64,000 nt of DNA from NCBI GenBank assembly GCA_025358925.1, contig JANYHT010000050.1:124001-188000 (forward strand), written 5' to 3'. Below are positions 1 to 50,731 of the stretch, one piece after another; the first letter of the stretch is position 1, and each line of letters begins with the position of its first letter. Origin of the DNA: Gemmatimonadaceae bacterium. GTDB taxonomy: Bacteria > Gemmatimonadota > Gemmatimonadetes > Gemmatimonadales > Gemmatimonadaceae. The position numbers and the translations under genes were made by a program. The notes beneath the pieces were generated by a model. The model had not been told where the DNA came from, searched no databases, and saw nothing but the letters and a program-made list of their open reading frames with translations.

Positions 1-178
1 ATTGCCAGCTGCCATCAGGGGTCGTTGCACGTGCCGACTGCGTGCCCGCTGCGGCCGCCTGGATGGCTTGCTGATCGCTGCCGCCACGTCGCGCCGTAGC
101 AGGCGTGCAGGAGCTGTTGGACGCGATGAGAAGAAGAGCCGTGGCCCAACGTACGGCCGTCTGACGGAATACGGGCAT
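1..178 (-). CDS. Partial secreted protein or lipoprotein, N-terminus only
   Basis: Reading the minus strand from an ATG at 178-176 gives 59 open codons that run off the window start. The product begins with a short basic stretch, then a hydrophobic segment (WATALLLIAS) and a Cys at residue 24, followed by an Ala/Gln/Ser/Thr-rich low-complexity tail. This looks like an export signal; the sequence before the Cys (NSSC) is a poor lipobox, so either a lipoprotein or a cleaved secreted protein is possible. The gene is divergent from the rhodanese-DinB gene. The function cannot be read from the portion visible. Confidence 0.5.
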   Translation of the reverse strand, partial: MPVFRQTAVRWATALLLIASNSSCTPATARRGGSDQQAIQAAAAGTQSARATTPDGSWQ

Positions 179-275
179 TGCATCGTTCCGGAAAGAATCG
201 GGCGGAAGGCGGGGAGAGCGGGTATGCTACGCATCGGTTCAGCATCGCGAAAGACGCGTTACTTGACCATTTCGC

Positions 276-42625: not shown

Positions 42626-43474
42626 ATGCCAACGCGATACGAATTCGAGCACGGGTGGTCGGAATCTGCGCTGTGTGCTCCACACGAATCGCTACGCGGC
42701 ATCGTGCATGGCCCGTACGTTGGTTGGACGCAATACACGACAGTGCCGGTGACACGCCGCGAAGTGGCCGGGACCATCATCCCCATCATTCTCAATCTGT
42801 CATCGCCGTATCGCATTGTGAGTGGTCACGATGACGCAACGCGCTCGGTCGTGCTGCATTCGTTTGCGGCGGGTCTCTATGACACGTGGGTGGCCGTTGA
42901 AGGCGCGCGCGAGAGCCAAGCGTTGCAAGTCAATCTCACGCCACTCGGTGCGCATGCGTTGCTGGCCGTACCGATGCATGAACTCGTAAATCGCGTTGTC
43001 GCCATCGACGATTTATTCGGTGCGCGCGCCTCCGCGCTGATTGAACGACTCGTCAACGCACCATCGTGGCGCGCGCGCTTTATCGAGCTCGATCAATTTT
43101 TGTGCAAATGTCTCGCGAATGCGCGTCCTGCATCGCCGCATCTTCGCTGGGCGTGGGATGAACTCGCGAACGCGCATGGTACGATGTCAATCACGTCGCT
43201 GGCAACATCGCTGGGGTGGTCGCCAAAGCGACTGATTGCACACTTTCGTGATGGCGTTGGACTACCGCCAAAAACGATCGCGCAACTGATGCGCTTCGAC
43301 CACCTCGTGCAACGCGTGGGTGCACAGCCGTTAGTTCAATGGTCGACACTTGCGTACGACTGTGGCTATAGCGACCAGTCGCATCTGCACCGCGATTTCG
43401 TTGAATTTGCAGGTTGCACTCCCGTCGAGTTTCTGCGCACGCGGCTCCCCGACGGTGGCGGCATCGTCGCCTAA
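42626..43474 (+). CDS. AraC family transcriptional regulator
   Basis: A 282-residue regulator. The C-terminal 100 residues are an AraC-type double helix-turn-helix: ITSLATSLGWSPKRLIAHFRDGVGLPPKTIAQLMRFDHLV, then LAYDCGYSDQSHLHRDFVEFAGCTPVEFLR. The N-terminal 170 residues are a beta-rich effector domain without a recognised ligand motif. It starts 4 nt after the small secreted protein. The VOC gene just downstream is a plausible target. Confidence 0.88.
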   Translation: MPTRYEFEHGWSESALCAPHESLRGIVHGPYVGWTQYTTVPVTRREVAGTIIPIILNLSSPYRIVSGHDDATRSVVLHSFAAGLYDTWVAVEGARESQALQVNLTPLGAHALLAVPMHELVNRVVAIDDLFGARASALIERLVNAPSWRARFIELDQFLCKCLANARPASPHLRWAWDELANAHGTMSITSLATSLGWSPKRLIAHFRDGVGLPPKTIAQLMRFDHLVQRVGAQPLVQWSTLAYDCGYSDQSHLHRDFVEFAGCTPVEFLRTRLPDGGGIVA

Positions 43475-43586
43475 CCGTCACCGCCAACCTGCAGCGAAAA
43501 ATTTGTTCAAGACGGTGTGTCTGTGTGCGCGTATCATCGACTCGTCGCTCTTGCGAGCCGTGCATCGCGTCGTTCACCTCTATGGG

Positions 43587-44033
43587 TTGATATATGGAAA
43601 CCGTTCACACGCCGCTCCACCCAAGCTGTACGCGTGTCTCTCGTATCGCAATCCTGCGACGGCGATTGAATTTCTTATGCGCGCATTCGGGTTTGTCACC
43701 GTACTCATCGTACATGACGACGACGGCGCCATCACGCACGCAGAAATTGCTCTCGGCCAAGAGATCGTGATGCTCGGATCGTCGAAGCCGGAGTTGGGAT
43801 GGATTAGTCCGCTGGATTTACCTGCGGTGAACTCAACGATCTGTGCGTTTGTGCCCGACGTGGACGCACACTGTGCGCGCACTCTTTCTGAGGGCGCGAC
43901 ACTTCTACGACCGCTCGCTGACACGTCGTATGGCGCGCGAGAATACTCTGTAAAGGATCTCGAAGGTCACCATTGGCACTTTGGCACGTATCGTCCAACG
44001 GCAACGCCGTCACCAAATACCGTCGCGTCGTGA
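43587..44033 (+). CDS. VOC superfamily (glyoxalase/bleomycin-resistance-like) protein
   Basis: A 148-residue VOC-fold protein: LYACLSYRNPATAIEFLMRAFGF, THAEIALGQEIVMLG, and the C-terminal DLEGHHWHFGTYRP. TTG at 43587 is the best in-frame start. An ATG at 43594 (starting METVHT) is one frame off and would look like a natural N-terminus, so a single-base error or frameshift near 43600-43620 is possible. It converges on the HipA-like gene, and its last 30 nt lie in a stretch homologous to mnmA. Confidence 0.75.
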   Translation: MIYGNRSHAAPPKLYACLSYRNPATAIEFLMRAFGFVTVLIVHDDDGAITHAEIALGQEIVMLGSSKPELGWISPLDLPAVNSTICAFVPDVDAHCARTLSEGATLLRPLADTSYGAREYSVKDLEGHHWHFGTYRPTATPSPNTVAS

Positions 44034-44056
44034 AACAACACCATGGATGGCCGCGG
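44003..44056. repeat. Diverged copy of an mnmA 3' segment (distal copy)
   Basis: These 54 bases match 46190-46243, inside mnmA, in the same orientation with about 8 mismatches. On the minus strand this copy reads PSMVLFHDATVFGDGV, against QSMVLFRDAMVLGGGV in MnmA. The two copies flank the HipA-like gene. The copy overlaps the end of the VOC gene and its TGA stop. Confidence 0.75.
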
Positions 44057-44076
44057 CCAAGGCGATGCGCGCTGGC

Positions 44077-46008
44077 TTAGGCTCCGAAGTCTCGCAACCG
44101 CGCATCGGCAATTCGAAAATATCGCTCGGAGATGTCGGCGGGCATGTGCGATATCGACAAAACATCGTGCAGATTCGCTCGTACTTTACTGGCCAGTTGC
44201 GCGATCAGCTCTTCGCCAACGCGCTTGCTACCGTTCCATCGTTCTGTAACGCTCGCGATGTCGCGCGGTCGGATGTTGTTTCTCTTGCCATTGATGGGTA
44301 TCGCAAAATCGTCATCGCGTATAGCCACTCTCGTGTTGAGTAGATCGTACATCGGTGAATATTCACTCGCTCGAAGTTGTGGAGCGCCACCGAGCGCACC
44401 GGATCGAATCAATCGGACGACGGAAATGTTTTTGGCGTGTAAATCGCCATTTCCGATTAGCCATGAAAAGGCGACGTGTTCGATCAGTCGCCAGAGTCCT
44501 GACGCCGTCACGTCGGGGGATAAACCGGCGATTCGAAGCGTTTCTGCAATCCGCTCAACAGACGTTTTGTATTTGTCCTTGCGCGGCAGCAGCAGTAGTG
44601 AACAGGTATCTTCCTGCAGCACCAGATCGACTCGCGATGGTTCGATCTCGAGCGCTGATCGCATCGGAATGTCGTAGCGCTCCACCATGAGCGAAGTTCC
44701 GCGAAGTAGGCTGCCCTCGTCGAACGTGATGAGGCGGACGGGGGCGACCATGAGCTCGCTCCGACGTGCCAGCTCCATCGTCGCCCATTCGTTCTCCACC
44801 AACGACTCGTAGTGGGGAGACTGAAATTTCAGAATGTGTGTGCACGACGTTCGCAGATCACCAATTCTCACCGTAGGTGTGTTCGACTCTATGGAGAGCG
44901 ACACCGGTAGTTTTGGCTGTATGCCGGACAAGCCCACCGCACTTCGTGCTCTCAATCCTTTCCAAAACGCGTTCGTCTCGGGATCGAGTTCAATCTTTTC
45001 TGTGGCGCGGATTGTTTTCGTTGGATCGAATTCGACGTCCTGCAATCGAACGCTGTGCGTGTCCAATCGAAATTCATCGAGCGGAATGTTAAGCGGACGG
45101 AGCGTCAGGTTTGACAGGTACTTTCGCGTGCTCCCGAGCAGCGATACCGAATCATTACGGTCGATCTGATAGGTCCTGACAATTCGGCTTTCGGTCCAAC
45201 CCTCCGGTAGGAGATTTTCAAAGAAGGCTGGCATGCGCGGACCTTCATACGACACGCTAAGCTCATTCGACAGCGGCAGTTCTTTCGACAGCGCAACGGA
45301 CCATCCTTGGTGGTACTCGAATCGAAATTCAGTATTGTTCAACGCTGTGAGCGAACCAACCGGCCAGTTGTAGAAGTACAGGTCAAATTTTTTCACGCCG
45401 TCGGCATGAACGGTCGCCGACTGATTCGTGCCCTCCACCAAATGCTTGAATCGTACGTATTCCGCAGCGAGCTGATTGCGTTTGGCAAAGGCACTCGCCC
45501 GCATCATATCCGTTTTGCTGAGCGTCTTGATCAGAGCAAGCAGCCCCGCATCGGAGAGTTCTCGTTCTGGATAGTGTCGCGAAGGGATCATGCACTCGAA
45601 CGTGGTTTGCAGTGCGCTCGATACCGTTACGGTGCTCGCCGATGGCAGGTCGTCCTTCGTTTTTACGAGCTCCATCGCGAGTTCAATGCGTTCCGTTTCC
45701 GGATGGGGTAACGCCTTCATTCGGACAAGACGGAGACCCGGTAGCTGGAGTGCATTGCGCTTCCCGCCCGCCTCAGCGAGGAATAACACGTCGCCCACTG
45801 GTCCTCGGATTGCGGAGGAGCGATGTGAGACGTACGCGTTCTTGAAAAGGTGCGCCGCAATGGGGAGCGCCGCCGCTCTGATCTGCTCCTCCGCCGTCGT
45901 TTCCTTGTCGTCCGAGTAGATTCCCCGCGCGAGCCGGACGAGAGATCCGCGCTCGACTCGTTTCGCCAGCATGCGAGAATGCGAAGTTGTCTCTGCGAGG
46001 TAGAGCAT
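44077..46008 (-). CDS. HipA-like kinase with an AbiEi-like N-terminal domain
   Basis: A 643-residue protein. The ATG at 46008 is preferred: a GGAG sits 7 nt upstream and the promoter ends just before, whereas the ATG at 46050 lies within that promoter. Residues 1-200 resemble AbiEi-type antitoxin proteins: a partial winged helix (LAKRVERGSLVRLARGIYS, residues 14-32) and a following domain (AYVSHRSSAIRGPVG, VSSALQTTFECMIPSR). Residues 205-300 fit the HipA N-terminal domain (FFENLLPEGWTESRIV). Residues 300-643 fit the HipA kinase: GLSGIQPKLPVSL, HILKF, ENEWATMELAR, LMVERYD, catalytic Asp522 and Asn527 in GDLHAKN, metal Asp555 in SPMYDLL. HipA kinases phosphorylate glutamyl- or tryptophanyl-tRNA synthetases; the target here is unknown. 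No separate hipB is present. Confidence 0.83.
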   Translation of the reverse strand: MLYLAETTSHSRMLAKRVERGSLVRLARGIYSDDKETTAEEQIRAAALPIAAHLFKNAYVSHRSSAIRGPVGDVLFLAEAGGKRNALQLPGLRLVRMKALPHPETERIELAMELVKTKDDLPSASTVTVSSALQTTFECMIPSRHYPERELSDAGLLALIKTLSKTDMMRASAFAKRNQLAAEYVRFKHLVEGTNQSATVHADGVKKFDLYFYNWPVGSLTALNNTEFRFEYHQGWSVALSKELPLSNELSVSYEGPRMPAFFENLLPEGWTESRIVRTYQIDRNDSVSLLGSTRKYLSNLTLRPLNIPLDEFRLDTHSVRLQDVEFDPTKTIRATEKIELDPETNAFWKGLRARSAVGLSGIQPKLPVSLSIESNTPTVRIGDLRTSCTHILKFQSPHYESLVENEWATMELARRSELMVAPVRLITFDEGSLLRGTSLMVERYDIPMRSALEIEPSRVDLVLQEDTCSLLLLPRKDKYKTSVERIAETLRIAGLSPDVTASGLWRLIEHVAFSWLIGNGDLHAKNISVVRLIRSGALGGAPQLRASEYSPMYDLLNTRVAIRDDDFAIPINGKRNNIRPRDIASVTERWNGSKRVGEELIAQLASKVRANLHDVLSISHMPADISERYFRIADARLRDFGA

Positions 46009-46019
46009 ACGGCGTCTCC

Positions 46020-46068
46020 GTCTAAAAAGTGTTGCTTTAATTATATTCATGAAACGATTTTTAGACAA
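46020..46068 (-). promoter_or_regulatory. Promoter of the HipA-like gene within a 9-bp inverted repeat (candidate operator)
   Basis: On the minus strand TTGTCT (46068-46063) and a perfect TATAAT (46045-46040) are separated by 17 bp. A perfect inverted repeat, GTCTAAAAA (46020-46028, plus strand) and TTTTTAGAC (46058-46066), brackets the -10 box: one arm overlaps the -35 element, the other lies about 10 nt after the expected transcription start. The stretch is strikingly AT-rich. Binding of the encoded protein to it would give autoregulation (inference). Confidence 0.75.
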
Positions 46069-47296: not shown

Positions 47297-48459
47297 GTGA
47301 GTGCCTGCACATGGGTGCCGCGCGCCTTTGCCGCGAGTGTGGCCAATACGTCAACGACGCGCGTCACACTCGCCTCGTTGCTTAAGCAGCCCAGCGACAA
47401 ACGCAGTGCGGCGTTGGTGAGCGCAGGAGAAACACCCATCGCCGACAACACGTGCGACGCTGAAACACTCCCGCTTTGACATGCCGAACCAGCGCTGCAC
47501 GCGATACCGCGCAAGTCGAGCGCCATGAGCATGGATTCACTGTCTGTTCCAGGAATCGAAACGTTTGTGATGTGCGGTGCTCGTGCAGCGCGCGCGCTGT
47601 GAATCACGGCGTCTGGAATGCGCTCACGCAATAATGATTCGAGCGTGCCTTGCAGCGCAGACAGTCGCGCGTGCTCATGCACCTGCTCGGCGAGTATCAA
47701 TTCGGCGGCGGTAGCGAGACCCACCGCGAACGCGACATTTTCCGTACCGGGTCGACGTCCACGATCTTGCGTCCCACCGTGAAACAGTGGTTCGAGTGGT
47801 GTGTCACGTCGAATGAAAAGGGCCCCGATACCCTTCGGTGCGCCGAGCTTGTGTCCGGAAATCGAAAGCATGTCGAATGGGGTGCGACGGGCGTCGACAC
47901 TCACTTTACCAAATGCCTGCACCGCATCCGTGTGAAACACTGCGCCGACCGATTTGGCTTGCATCGCAAGTGCTGGTATGTCCTGAATGACTCCCGTTTC
48001 GTTGTTGACCCACATCACACTTACAACAGCGACCTGCGCATCAAGCGAGCGGGCGTAATCATCGGCATTAACAACACCGTCGCACGATACGCGCACGATA
48101 CGCTCGATACCACCTTCATGCGCCACTTGATGCACGGCCGCGAGAATGGCCTTGTGTTCGATGGGCGTCGTGACCGCAACCGTGCGCCCGCTTGCGCGCA
48201 ACGTACGTGCAACGCCCAGCACCGCGAAATTGTCCGCTTCAGTTCCGCCGGACGTAAAGCACACCTCATCAGAGTGCGCGCCGAGGCAGGTTGCTAAACG
48301 CTCGCGCGCTTCGTCGAGCGAAACGCGCGCTTCGCGACCCCATCGATGCACGCTGGATGGATTTCCAAAACGCGAACAGAAGAACGGGGCCATCGCGGCC
48401 ATGACCTCATCGCGCACGGGCGTAGTGGCGGCGTGGTCCAGATACACGGGCGTGTTCAT
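47293..48459 (-). CDS. iscS: Cysteine desulfurase (IscS/NifS type)
   Basis: A 388-residue PLP enzyme from the ATG at 48459 (MNTPVYLDHAATTPV). Motifs: FTSGGTEADNFAVLG, the PLP-Lys in SISGHKLGAPKGIGAL, GGTQDRGRRPGTENV, and the catalytic Cys in GIACSAGSACQSGS. It mobilises sulfur from cysteine, here for MnmA and probably Fe-S clusters. The frame upstream of 48459 has no protein character. It is divergent from the zinc-ribbon protein at 48524; only 64 nt separate them. Confidence 0.95.
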   Translation of the reverse strand: MNTPVYLDHAATTPVRDEVMAAMAPFFCSRFGNPSSVHRWGREARVSLDEARERLATCLGAHSDEVCFTSGGTEADNFAVLGVARTLRASGRTVAVTTPIEHKAILAAVHQVAHEGGIERIVRVSCDGVVNADDYARSLDAQVAVVSVMWVNNETGVIQDIPALAMQAKSVGAVFHTDAVQAFGKVSVDARRTPFDMLSISGHKLGAPKGIGALFIRRDTPLEPLFHGGTQDRGRRPGTENVAFAVGLATAAELILAEQVHEHARLSALQGTLESLLRERIPDAVIHSARAARAPHITNVSIPGTDSESMLMALDLRGIACSAGSACQSGSVSASHVLSAMGVSPALTNAALRLSLGCLSNEASVTRVVDVLATLAAKARGTHVQALT

Positions 48460-48523
48460 CCGGATAAACTTATCGAGGACGGGGACGGACTGCACCCGTC
48501 GTCCAACAGCTGCACTCGGGCCA

Positions 48524-49588
48524 ATGTTTACAACCTGCATCCACTGTACCGCCGATTTGGGCCGCAACGAGGCCTTTGAGATATTCCCCGTCGGGACGCG
48601 ATTGGCATTTGACGCCGCTCGTGGCCGCCTGTGGGTGGTGTGCCGCGCGTGCGACCGCTGGAACCTTTCCCCGCTTGACGAGCGCTGGGAGGCCGTGGAG
48701 GCCGCAGAGCAACGATTCCGTGATAGTCGACTGCGCGTGAGTACCGGGAACATCGGCCTCGCGCGGCTGCGTGAGGGTGTCGACCTCATTCGCATTGGTG
48801 ACCCGCAGCGACCGGAGATGGCGGCGTGGCGCTACGGCGATCAATTCGGCCGTCGTCGGAAGCGACAAATGCTCATCACCGGCGCCGTTGTTGGCGCAGC
48901 GGCGACGGTGGTTGGTGCGGTCACCTTTATTGGCGCGTCGGCAGGCTCGTTTGCGGGGGTGTACGCGAATGGTGGCTTGTGGGATATGCTCATACACGGA
49001 AAGCCAAGTACGGTCGTCGCGCGCATTCCCGTGGATGGCACGTTGCTGACCGTGCAGCGGCGTCACGCGCGCATGAGCGCGATTGAGCGGGTCGGGCCGT
49101 TCGAGCCGTTTTCGCTACGTGTTGAACACACGCAGGGAACCGCGCAGCTCGTTGGTGCAGAAGCGATGCGTGCTGCCGCGCAGTTGATGCCCACCGTGAA
49201 TCGATTTGGCGGCTCGGCGCGCAGTGTGAACGATGCCGTGGCGTTTCTCGAAGCACACGGCGGTGCCACTCGCGTGCTCACGCACCTGGCGGATTCGTTT
49301 GGTGCGAACGCGACGGACGCACGGTGGAAATCAAAATCGCGATGGGGTGCGGCTTCGGTGAAGAAACTGCCTGGCGTATTGCATGCGCTACCGCAACATG
49401 CACGGATCTCCTTTGAGATGGCGTTGCACGAAGAGAGTGAACGGCGCGCGATGGACGGGGAACTCGCGGACCTCGAGAAAGCGTGGCGCGAGGCTGAAGA
49501 AATTGCCAAAATTGCTGACGATATGTTTGTCACGCCCGCCATGCAGCAACACGTGGAGACGCTGCGTCTTCCTCGCGACAACAAATAG
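48524..49588 (+). CDS. Unknown zinc-ribbon protein with hydrophobic segment, paralogue A
   Basis: A 354-residue protein from the ATG at 48524. The N-terminal 45 residues form a probable zinc ribbon: C-x2-C in TCIHCTADLG and C-x2-C in CRACDRWNLSP. A conserved block follows (RVSTGNIGLARLREGVDLIRIG ... EMAAWRYGDQFGRRR, split here), then a Gly/Ala/Val-rich hydrophobic segment (about 115-150) that could be one or two membrane helices. The C-terminal half is soluble with a helical end (ARISFEMALHEESERRAMDGE; DLEKAWREAEEIAKIADDMF). I recognise no named family. It is duplicated directly downstream. Confidence 0.75.
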   Translation: MFTTCIHCTADLGRNEAFEIFPVGTRLAFDAARGRLWVVCRACDRWNLSPLDERWEAVEAAEQRFRDSRLRVSTGNIGLARLREGVDLIRIGDPQRPEMAAWRYGDQFGRRRKRQMLITGAVVGAAATVVGAVTFIGASAGSFAGVYANGGLWDMLIHGKPSTVVARIPVDGTLLTVQRRHARMSAIERVGPFEPFSLRVEHTQGTAQLVGAEAMRAAAQLMPTVNRFGGSARSVNDAVAFLEAHGGATRVLTHLADSFGANATDARWKSKSRWGAASVKKLPGVLHALPQHARISFEMALHEESERRAMDGELADLEKAWREAEEIAKIADDMFVTPAMQQHVETLRLPRDNK

Positions 49589-49624: not shown

Positions 49625-50731
49625 ATGTATTCCACCCGCCTGCATTGCCAGCGATCACTCGGCAGCAACGACGTTTTCGAGTCGCTGCCGATTGGGCGTC
49701 GCATTGCCTTCGACGCAGAACATGGACGACTCTGGATTGTGTGTCGCGCGTGCGAACGTTGAAATTTGTCGCCACTCGAAAAGCGCTGGGAAGCGGTCGA
49801 GCAATGTGAGCGCGCATTTCGTGCGACGCGAGTGCGTGTCAGTACCGACAACATTGGCCTGGCGCGTTTGCGCGACGACACGGAGTTGGTCCGGGTCGGA
49901 TCACCACTGCGTCCTGAGTTCGCCGCGTGGCGTTATGGTGACCAATTTGGAAAACGTCGAATACGCAGTGCCATTACCGCCGTCGGTGTAACCGCTGGCG
50001 TCGGCGCGGCCGTTGGTATTGCAGCTTCTGCGGGCGCCGGAGTCGTGTCAGTACTCGGCGCTGTAGCGCTCCTGCCCATCGGCCCTTTGCTTGCAGGTAT
50101 CTTAACGCTCACGGCGCGCGCGACCGGCCCTCGCATTGAACGTCCGGATCGATCGATTGCGTTCGCGTTGGGTACGCCTCGACTGATTGCGATGGATATC
50201 GCCGAAGGGTGGGGTCTTGAATTGGGATGCGTGCCGGTAGGTTCTGCAATCGCGCCACCTCGCTCCAAGTCAGCGTGGTTTGAAACACCACAGTACCATT
50301 TGTCCGACGTGGTACGCGTCAAACTTCCTGCATCCCCGGCACTAACATTTTTGCGACACATATTGCCGCGCGTGAATCGCGCGGGCGCGGCGCGATCCGT
50401 CATTGCGGACGGCGTACAACTGATTGAGGATGCGGGAGGTCCGGAAAACTTTGGACGTTGGGCGGTGAGCAAGCGCCGTGCATGGGATTCGTTGCAAACG
50501 TACGGCGACTCTGGTGATCTCTCCTACATCCCAGCGCCCGCACGACTCGCGTTCGAAATGGCCTTGCACGAGGACAGCGAGTATCGCGCGCTGCATGGTG
50601 AACTTGCAACACTTGAGCGTGCGTGGCGTGACGCCGAGGGCCTAGCAAGTATCGCCGACACTTTGCTTGTGCCGGAATCGGTGCAACAAAAGTTTGATAC
50701 GATGCAACGGTCGAGCAATCGCGACCAATAG
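49625..50731 (+). pseudogene. Paralogue B of the zinc-ribbon protein, interrupted by an in-frame TGA
   Basis: Read from the ATG at 49625 the product aligns with paralogue A over its whole length: VFESLPIGRRIAFDAEHGRLWIVCRAC, NLSPLEKRWEAVEQCERAF, VSTDNIGLARLRDDTELVRVG and FEMALHEDSEYRALHGELA are clear counterparts (separate segments). A TGA at 49760-49762 stands where A has the Trp of CDRWNLSP (TGG to TGA), and the first zinc Cys is replaced by Arg (RLHC). The remaining 300 codons are intact. Initiation at the TTG at 49766 could still give a protein without the zinc ribbon. Confidence 0.75.

Follow-up and report, generated by a model that had tools for sequence, protein, structure and literature searches.

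An AbiEi-like module fused in one gene to a HipA-family kinase, with predicted operators, in a Gemmatimonadaceae bacterium

HipA kinases, which cause antibiotic tolerance, are as a rule restrained by a separate protein, HipB. They are classed among the type II toxin-antitoxin systems, and AbiE systems belong to type IV. The part of a 2021 HipA phylogeny on which we draw distinguishes ten gene organizations, with HipB, HipS, HIRAN, Stl-like, resolvase-like or HTH partners, and neither an AbiEi partner nor an AbiEi-HipA fusion was met in that part (PMC8262856). As described there, HipH/YjjJ (E. coli K-12 b4385) is encoded by a single gene, lacks an antitoxin gene and has a DNA-binding region at its N terminus, and HipL carries kinase, HipS-like and DNA-binding domains in one gene (PMC8262856). 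A toxin enzyme and a DNA-binding domain are also joined in CccR of Yersinia pseudotuberculosis, a single autorepressing protein (PMC9755527).

Here we describe a gene from a 64,000-nucleotide stretch of a Gemmatimonadaceae genome (hereafter the window), which encodes a predicted AbiEi-type module followed by a HipA kinase. Compared with HipA of hipBA (E. coli K-12, Shewanella oneidensis), the fusion has the complete HipA fold in the model, with N-subdomain-1, the Ser of the Gly-rich loop and the K/D/N/D residues, but it has no hipB and carries an N-terminal AbiEi module of about 200 residues. The fold of residues 1-192 and the geometry of the paired repeats are like those of AbiEi in type IV AbiE systems (S. 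agalactiae, 6y8q; M. tuberculosis Rv2827c, 1zel), whereas the fusion has a shortened winged helix, no AbiEii partner and an attached kinase. Among solved kinase cores, Legionella HipT is the closest by sequence, and the HipS-like domain is common to HipBST and the fusion, where it lies in cis; however, HipBST consists of three genes (HipB, HipS and HipT), in contrast to one gene with an AbiEi module. HipL resembles the fusion in its single-gene composition but has HIRAN instead of AbiEi and a different domain order. HipH/YjjJ is likewise a single gene, but it has an HTH region of about 100 aa and no HipS-like domain, whereas the fusion has Couple_hipA. Membership in HipH/YjjJ was rejected on the presence of this domain and on the BLASTP match, which is limited to 17 residues in one kinase motif; the profile alignment between the two is weak. 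CccR shares the one-protein layout with the fusion, but it is a secreted Fic enzyme with a C-terminal HTH, neither a kinase nor AbiEi. In public annotation, the fusions are named type II toxin-antitoxin system HipA family toxin or HipA domain-containing protein, and no published description of an AbiEi-HipA fusion was found in a literature search limited to open-licence papers. The fusion is best filed as a new HipA variant in which an AbiEi module in cis takes the place of HipB.

The features of the gene are collected in Table 1. Its start was assigned to the listed ATG because GGAG lies 7 bases upstream and the start methionine of the homologues is equivalent to it. Longer starts (46293, or ATG 46050) were rejected; they are not kept in the homologues and overlap the upstream gene or the predicted operator. 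The ORF is not a chance open frame, since the same genome encodes a paralogue with 42% identity and other phyla encode proteins with 40-44% full-length identity. The initial annotation had proposed a 643-residue single-gene fusion of an AbiEi-like part and a HipA kinase without hipB, and this was confirmed by the ORF, the Pfam matches, the predicted folds and an HTH_3 scan.

Table 1 Features of the fusion gene and its upstream region (window positions)
Feature	Position	Strand	Evidence or remark
AbiEi-HipA fusion gene	44077..46008	(-)	ORF, 643 aa; ATG at 46008, stop at 44077
AbiEi-fold module (predicted), residues 1-192	45433..46008	(-)	AF2 model pLDDT 85.8; 6y8q Z 11.1
Sub-parts of the AbiEi-fold module	shortened winged helix, residues 1-32; nucleotidyltransferase-like, residues about 39-192	(-)	predicted model
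Couple_hipA (HipS-like, N-subdomain-1), residues 209-292	45133..45384	(-)	Pfam E 1.6e-14, 54.6 bits vs cut-off 22.5
HipA_C kinase core, residues 360-611	44176..44931	(-)	Pfam E 1.2e-35, 123.6 bits vs cut-off 30.5
Sigma-70-type promoter-like site, TTGTCT-17-TATAAT	46040..46068	(-)	10/12 consensus matches
Predicted operator, left arm GTCTAAAAA	46058..46066	(-)	overlaps -35 element
Predicted operator, right arm TTTTTAGAC	46020..46028	(-)	just beyond expected transcription start

In the kinase part, both Couple_hipA and HipA_C scored above the Pfam cut-offs, and the catalytic positions aligned with those of E. coli HipA, so that the HipA N domain and the fully equipped kinase proposed earlier are both present. 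In the alignment, the ATP lysine K394, the catalytic D522, N527, the metal-binding D555 and S361 of the Gly-rich loop correspond to K181, D309, N314, D332 and S150, respectively. A profile of the fusion family was aligned with nearly the full length of HipA (hhalign 99.7). In a model of the whole protein (mean pLDDT 72; Foldseek was also run), residues 206-643 matched E. coli HipA with a Z score of 22.4 and are thus modelled as a complete HipA fold.

The N-terminal part is AbiEi-like by predicted fold, whereas its sequence profiles are borderline; the earlier claim that about 200 residues resemble AbiEi therefore stands on the structural side and is left borderline on the sequence side. When the N-terminal part alone was compared with Pfam AbiEi_4, the score of 20.7 bits was under the curated cut-off of 25; this model spans only the winged helix, which is shortened in the fusion. 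Against the PADLOC AbiEi models, residues 1-203 gave a best E of 6.8e-5, and one of these models matched 15 of the 18 family members at E <= 0.1. A sequence-profile search against PDB chains gave no useful match for the N-terminal part, so the AbiEi assignment combines weak HMM scores with the predicted fold. The AF2 model of this part (202 residues) had as its best PDB match the S. agalactiae AbiEi antitoxin 6y8q (Foldseek E 1.9e-4, probability 1.00), which was aligned over 166 residues from AbiEi residue 15 on; the Z range for the AbiEi fold of residues 1-192 was 10.0-11.1. The next matches were MenT, other nucleotidyltransferase folds and Rv2827c (1zel, Z 6.4), which agrees with the published resemblance of AbiEi to adenylyltransferases and Rv2827c (PMC7319586). 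Structure prediction thus clearly assigns an AbiEi antitoxin fold to residues 1-192. The winged helix of AbiEi has the order H1-S1-H2-turn-H3-S2-wing-S3 (PMC3985639). In the model of the fusion, it consists of a strand (2-4), a helix (8-19) and two strands (24-27 and 30-32), with AbiEi helix 1 missing and a single helix where H2-turn-H3 is expected. All family members begin just ahead of this remaining helix, so the shortened winged helix is a trait of the family and not a truncation of the gene.

A self-repressing design had also been suggested, and the upstream regions of the window gene, its paralogue and most relatives agree with it, as promoter-overlapping inverted repeats with the geometry of AbiEi operators were found there. 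Because shuffled copies of the 2.4-kb region contained a mean of 1.0 promoter-like sites of this type on either strand, the argument from the promoter lies in its position and not in its presence. The inverted repeat of the window gene straddles this site with an outer span of 47 bp (p about 0.004). The repeats were tested against dinucleotide shuffles for an equal or better inverted repeat with a span of 44-58 bp within 70 bp of the start, and similar results were obtained for the paralogue (47 bp, p 0.007) and for the relatives L014 (48 bp, p 0.016) and L037 (50 bp, p 0.002), while none of 1000 shuffles was as good as the repeats of L017 and L015 (54 and 56 bp, respectively); these p values are somewhat flattering, since the span was picked after several of the sequences had been inspected. 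The proven AbiEi operator spans 49 bp, made up of two 23-bp repeats with a 3-bp spacer, and its IR1 covers the -35 element (PMC3985639; PMC7319586), and Rv2827c has two such repeat pairs between -131 and -1 (PMC7319586; PMC3985639). The repeat spans of the fusions agree with the published 49-bp operator.

One or two palindromes around CGYATnTSAnATRCG are present in alphaproteobacterial members (two copies in 8/10). Their core was matched 19 times in 116 kb, and 18 of these matches fall in the 95 bp upstream of a fusion start. Only this position is independent evidence, since the consensus was built from the same sequences. The distance between the two palindromes upstream of the L023-L032 fusions differs by group: about 63 bp in one, about 55 bp in another. 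Across most relatives, the sequence of the operator-like repeats varies by lineage and their position and symmetry are constant, as expected of the cognate operators of a self-repressor. Comparison therefore gives good support to the proposed autorepression in cis at the predicted operators. Two points count against it: the winged helix has no AbiEi helix 1, and L018 and L019 had no significant inverted repeat in the tested geometry (span 44-58 bp, 70 bp upstream). Both would suit an AbiEi part that binds no DNA and only folds, dimerizes or inhibits the kinase, with another protein on the repeats. We consider this improbable, because repeats of AbiEi-operator geometry with lineage-specific sequences occur in most relatives, and most relatives have no other DNA-binding gene alongside.

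The absence of a hipB gene beside the fusion, as initially annotated, was borne out by an HTH_3 profile scan of the genome, which was empty within 80 kb on the same contig; the nearest match on this contig (C62) lies 82 kb from the fusion, and the contig of the paralogue (C31) had no match. HTH_3 matches were absent from the 5 kb around nine of ten plasmid homologues, and from the entire plasmid in two of these cases; the exception, L028, has a divergent neighbour of 670 aa with an HTH_3 match. The same genome holds a canonical hipBA pair (L001:1396-3050, contig C53), whose HipB-like protein matches HTH_31/HTH_3. With this pair present, the fusion could be an orphan HipA kinase that is controlled by a HipB encoded elsewhere, for example that of C53. 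We regard this as very improbable indeed: relatives occur on plasmids without any HTH_3 match, the fusion has a regulator-like module of its own, and the C53 HipB adjoins its own HipA. There is also no AbiEii (DUF1814) nucleotidyltransferase gene beside the window fusion, the neighbour by which a type IV AbiE system is recognized.

The neighbourhood in the window is of a housekeeping kind, with a tRNA_Me_trans (MnmA-type) protein and a glyoxalase-family protein encoded in the flanking genes. The interval from mnmA to the fusion showed no intrinsic terminator, so transcription of mnmA may read through into the fusion. In a congeneric genome (L059), dnaJ, a 170-aa ORF and mnmA form an unbroken locus from which the AraC-type regulator, the glyoxalase-family gene and the fusion, present at 42626-46008 in the window, are absent. 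This difference at the dnaJ-mnmA locus fits a gain by horizontal transfer, and it may also reflect a loss in the relative. Elsewhere in the window, 48449-49585 and 49766-50728 are tandem paralogues without a Pfam family (37% identity, BLASTP E 1e-53).

The architecture was found in at least three bacterial lineages (Gemmatimonadota, Obscuribacterales/Melainabacteria and alphaproteobacterial plasmids). The paralogue in the same genome (L002) has the same layout, and relatives in Gemmatimonadetes and Obscuribacterales/Melainabacteria MAGs show 41-43% identity. Four further genomes of the window's phylum carry the fusion, two of which resemble the species of L018 and L019, and no other fusion was seen in 60 relatives of the window genome. 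The fusion is rare in the cyanobacterial phylum, where the survey gave matches in 2 of 292 genomes, including the seed genome. Among plasmids, 61 records match at least 80% of the window protein and 78 have an N-terminal module of the alphaproteobacterial kind, 45 of them closely related Pseudosulfitobacter plasmids; annotated features among the matches listed for that module on plasmids were HipA-type or hypothetical proteins. On plasmid NZ_CP121654.1, a complete AbiEi/AbiEii pair is located at a distance of 0.9 kb from an alphaproteobacterial fusion (L023:1875-4077), which also has a SIR2-family gene nearby. A phage origin was rejected, as viral contigs held no relative of the fusion and phage records gave one match only, partial and to the kinase.

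Two further readings bear on the role of the gene. It may be an abortive-infection gene for phage defence with AbiEi as the infection sensor, which would be compatible with cis control of the kinase. AbiE systems are abortive-infection systems (PMC3985639), and some plasmid fusions have AbiEi/AbiEii and SIR2 (L023), Xre-RES and Fic (L027) or cas9 (L032) as neighbours, but the window and most plasmid loci have no defence or toxin-antitoxin neighbours, and we hold this role to be unlikely. Alternatively, the protein could be a DNA-binding signalling kinase whose AbiEi part senses a ligand or the state of DNA, with a regulator phosphorylated and genes controlled and growth not arrested. The single gene without an antitoxin, the intact kinase residues and the housekeeping neighbourhood agree with such a kinase, as does HipH/YjjJ, a single-gene HipA relative with HTH in the part of the phylogeny cited above (PMC8262856). 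However, the patchy presence, the plasmid carriage and the gene-free congeneric locus are better suited to a mobile toxin-antitoxin-like gene, and the same module heads Fic enzymes, which makes a signalling kinase distinctly unlikely.

We consider it probable that the fusion is a single-gene autoregulated Ser/Thr kinase of the HipA family, in which a cis-fused two-domain module of the AbiEi type replaces HipB. Two molecules would bind each repeat pair by means of the AbiEi surface and what remains of the winged helix, and shut off their own transcription. At rest, the kinase would be restrained in cis by the C-terminal part of the AbiEi module, the HipS-like domain or both, and autophosphorylation of S361 may provide an additional brake, like that of S150 in HipA. 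Upon loss of restraint, the kinase would hit a cellular target and growth would stop. Known targets of HipA and HipT are aminoacyl-tRNA synthetases, so the putative target is probably in translation. Self-neutralization in cis, which had been suggested at the outset, is plausible, and the finding that AbiEi does not interact with its normal toxin AbiEii (PMC3985639) counts against it. With one chain and predicted operators, the fusion would offer a simple case for studying repression and restraint of a toxin kinase in cis, and it links two toxin-antitoxin types, HipA and AbiE, which have so far been handled separately. More tentatively, and with a chance a little below even, the shortened AbiEi module may be a portable cis controller, attached to HipA in several lineages and to Fic in others and working on cognate operators, with repressor, antitoxin and toxin in one polypeptide and the HipA fusions forming an unnamed class. 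Its recurrence on Fic enzymes suggests a possible general controller of toxin enzymes.

In nearly every match, the N-terminal module was joined to a toxin-type enzyme, either HipA or Fic. Proteins of 490-576 aa from the window's phylum combine a related AbiEi-like module at the N terminus with a C-terminal Fic domain (L041:1399-2961, L043:1417-2946 and L049:1221-2951, plus others). HPFxxGNGR was present in 18 of the 20 Fic-type loci inspected, and Pfam Fic was confirmed in three. One Fic protein encoded on a Hymenobacter plasmid matches the N-terminal module of the window protein.
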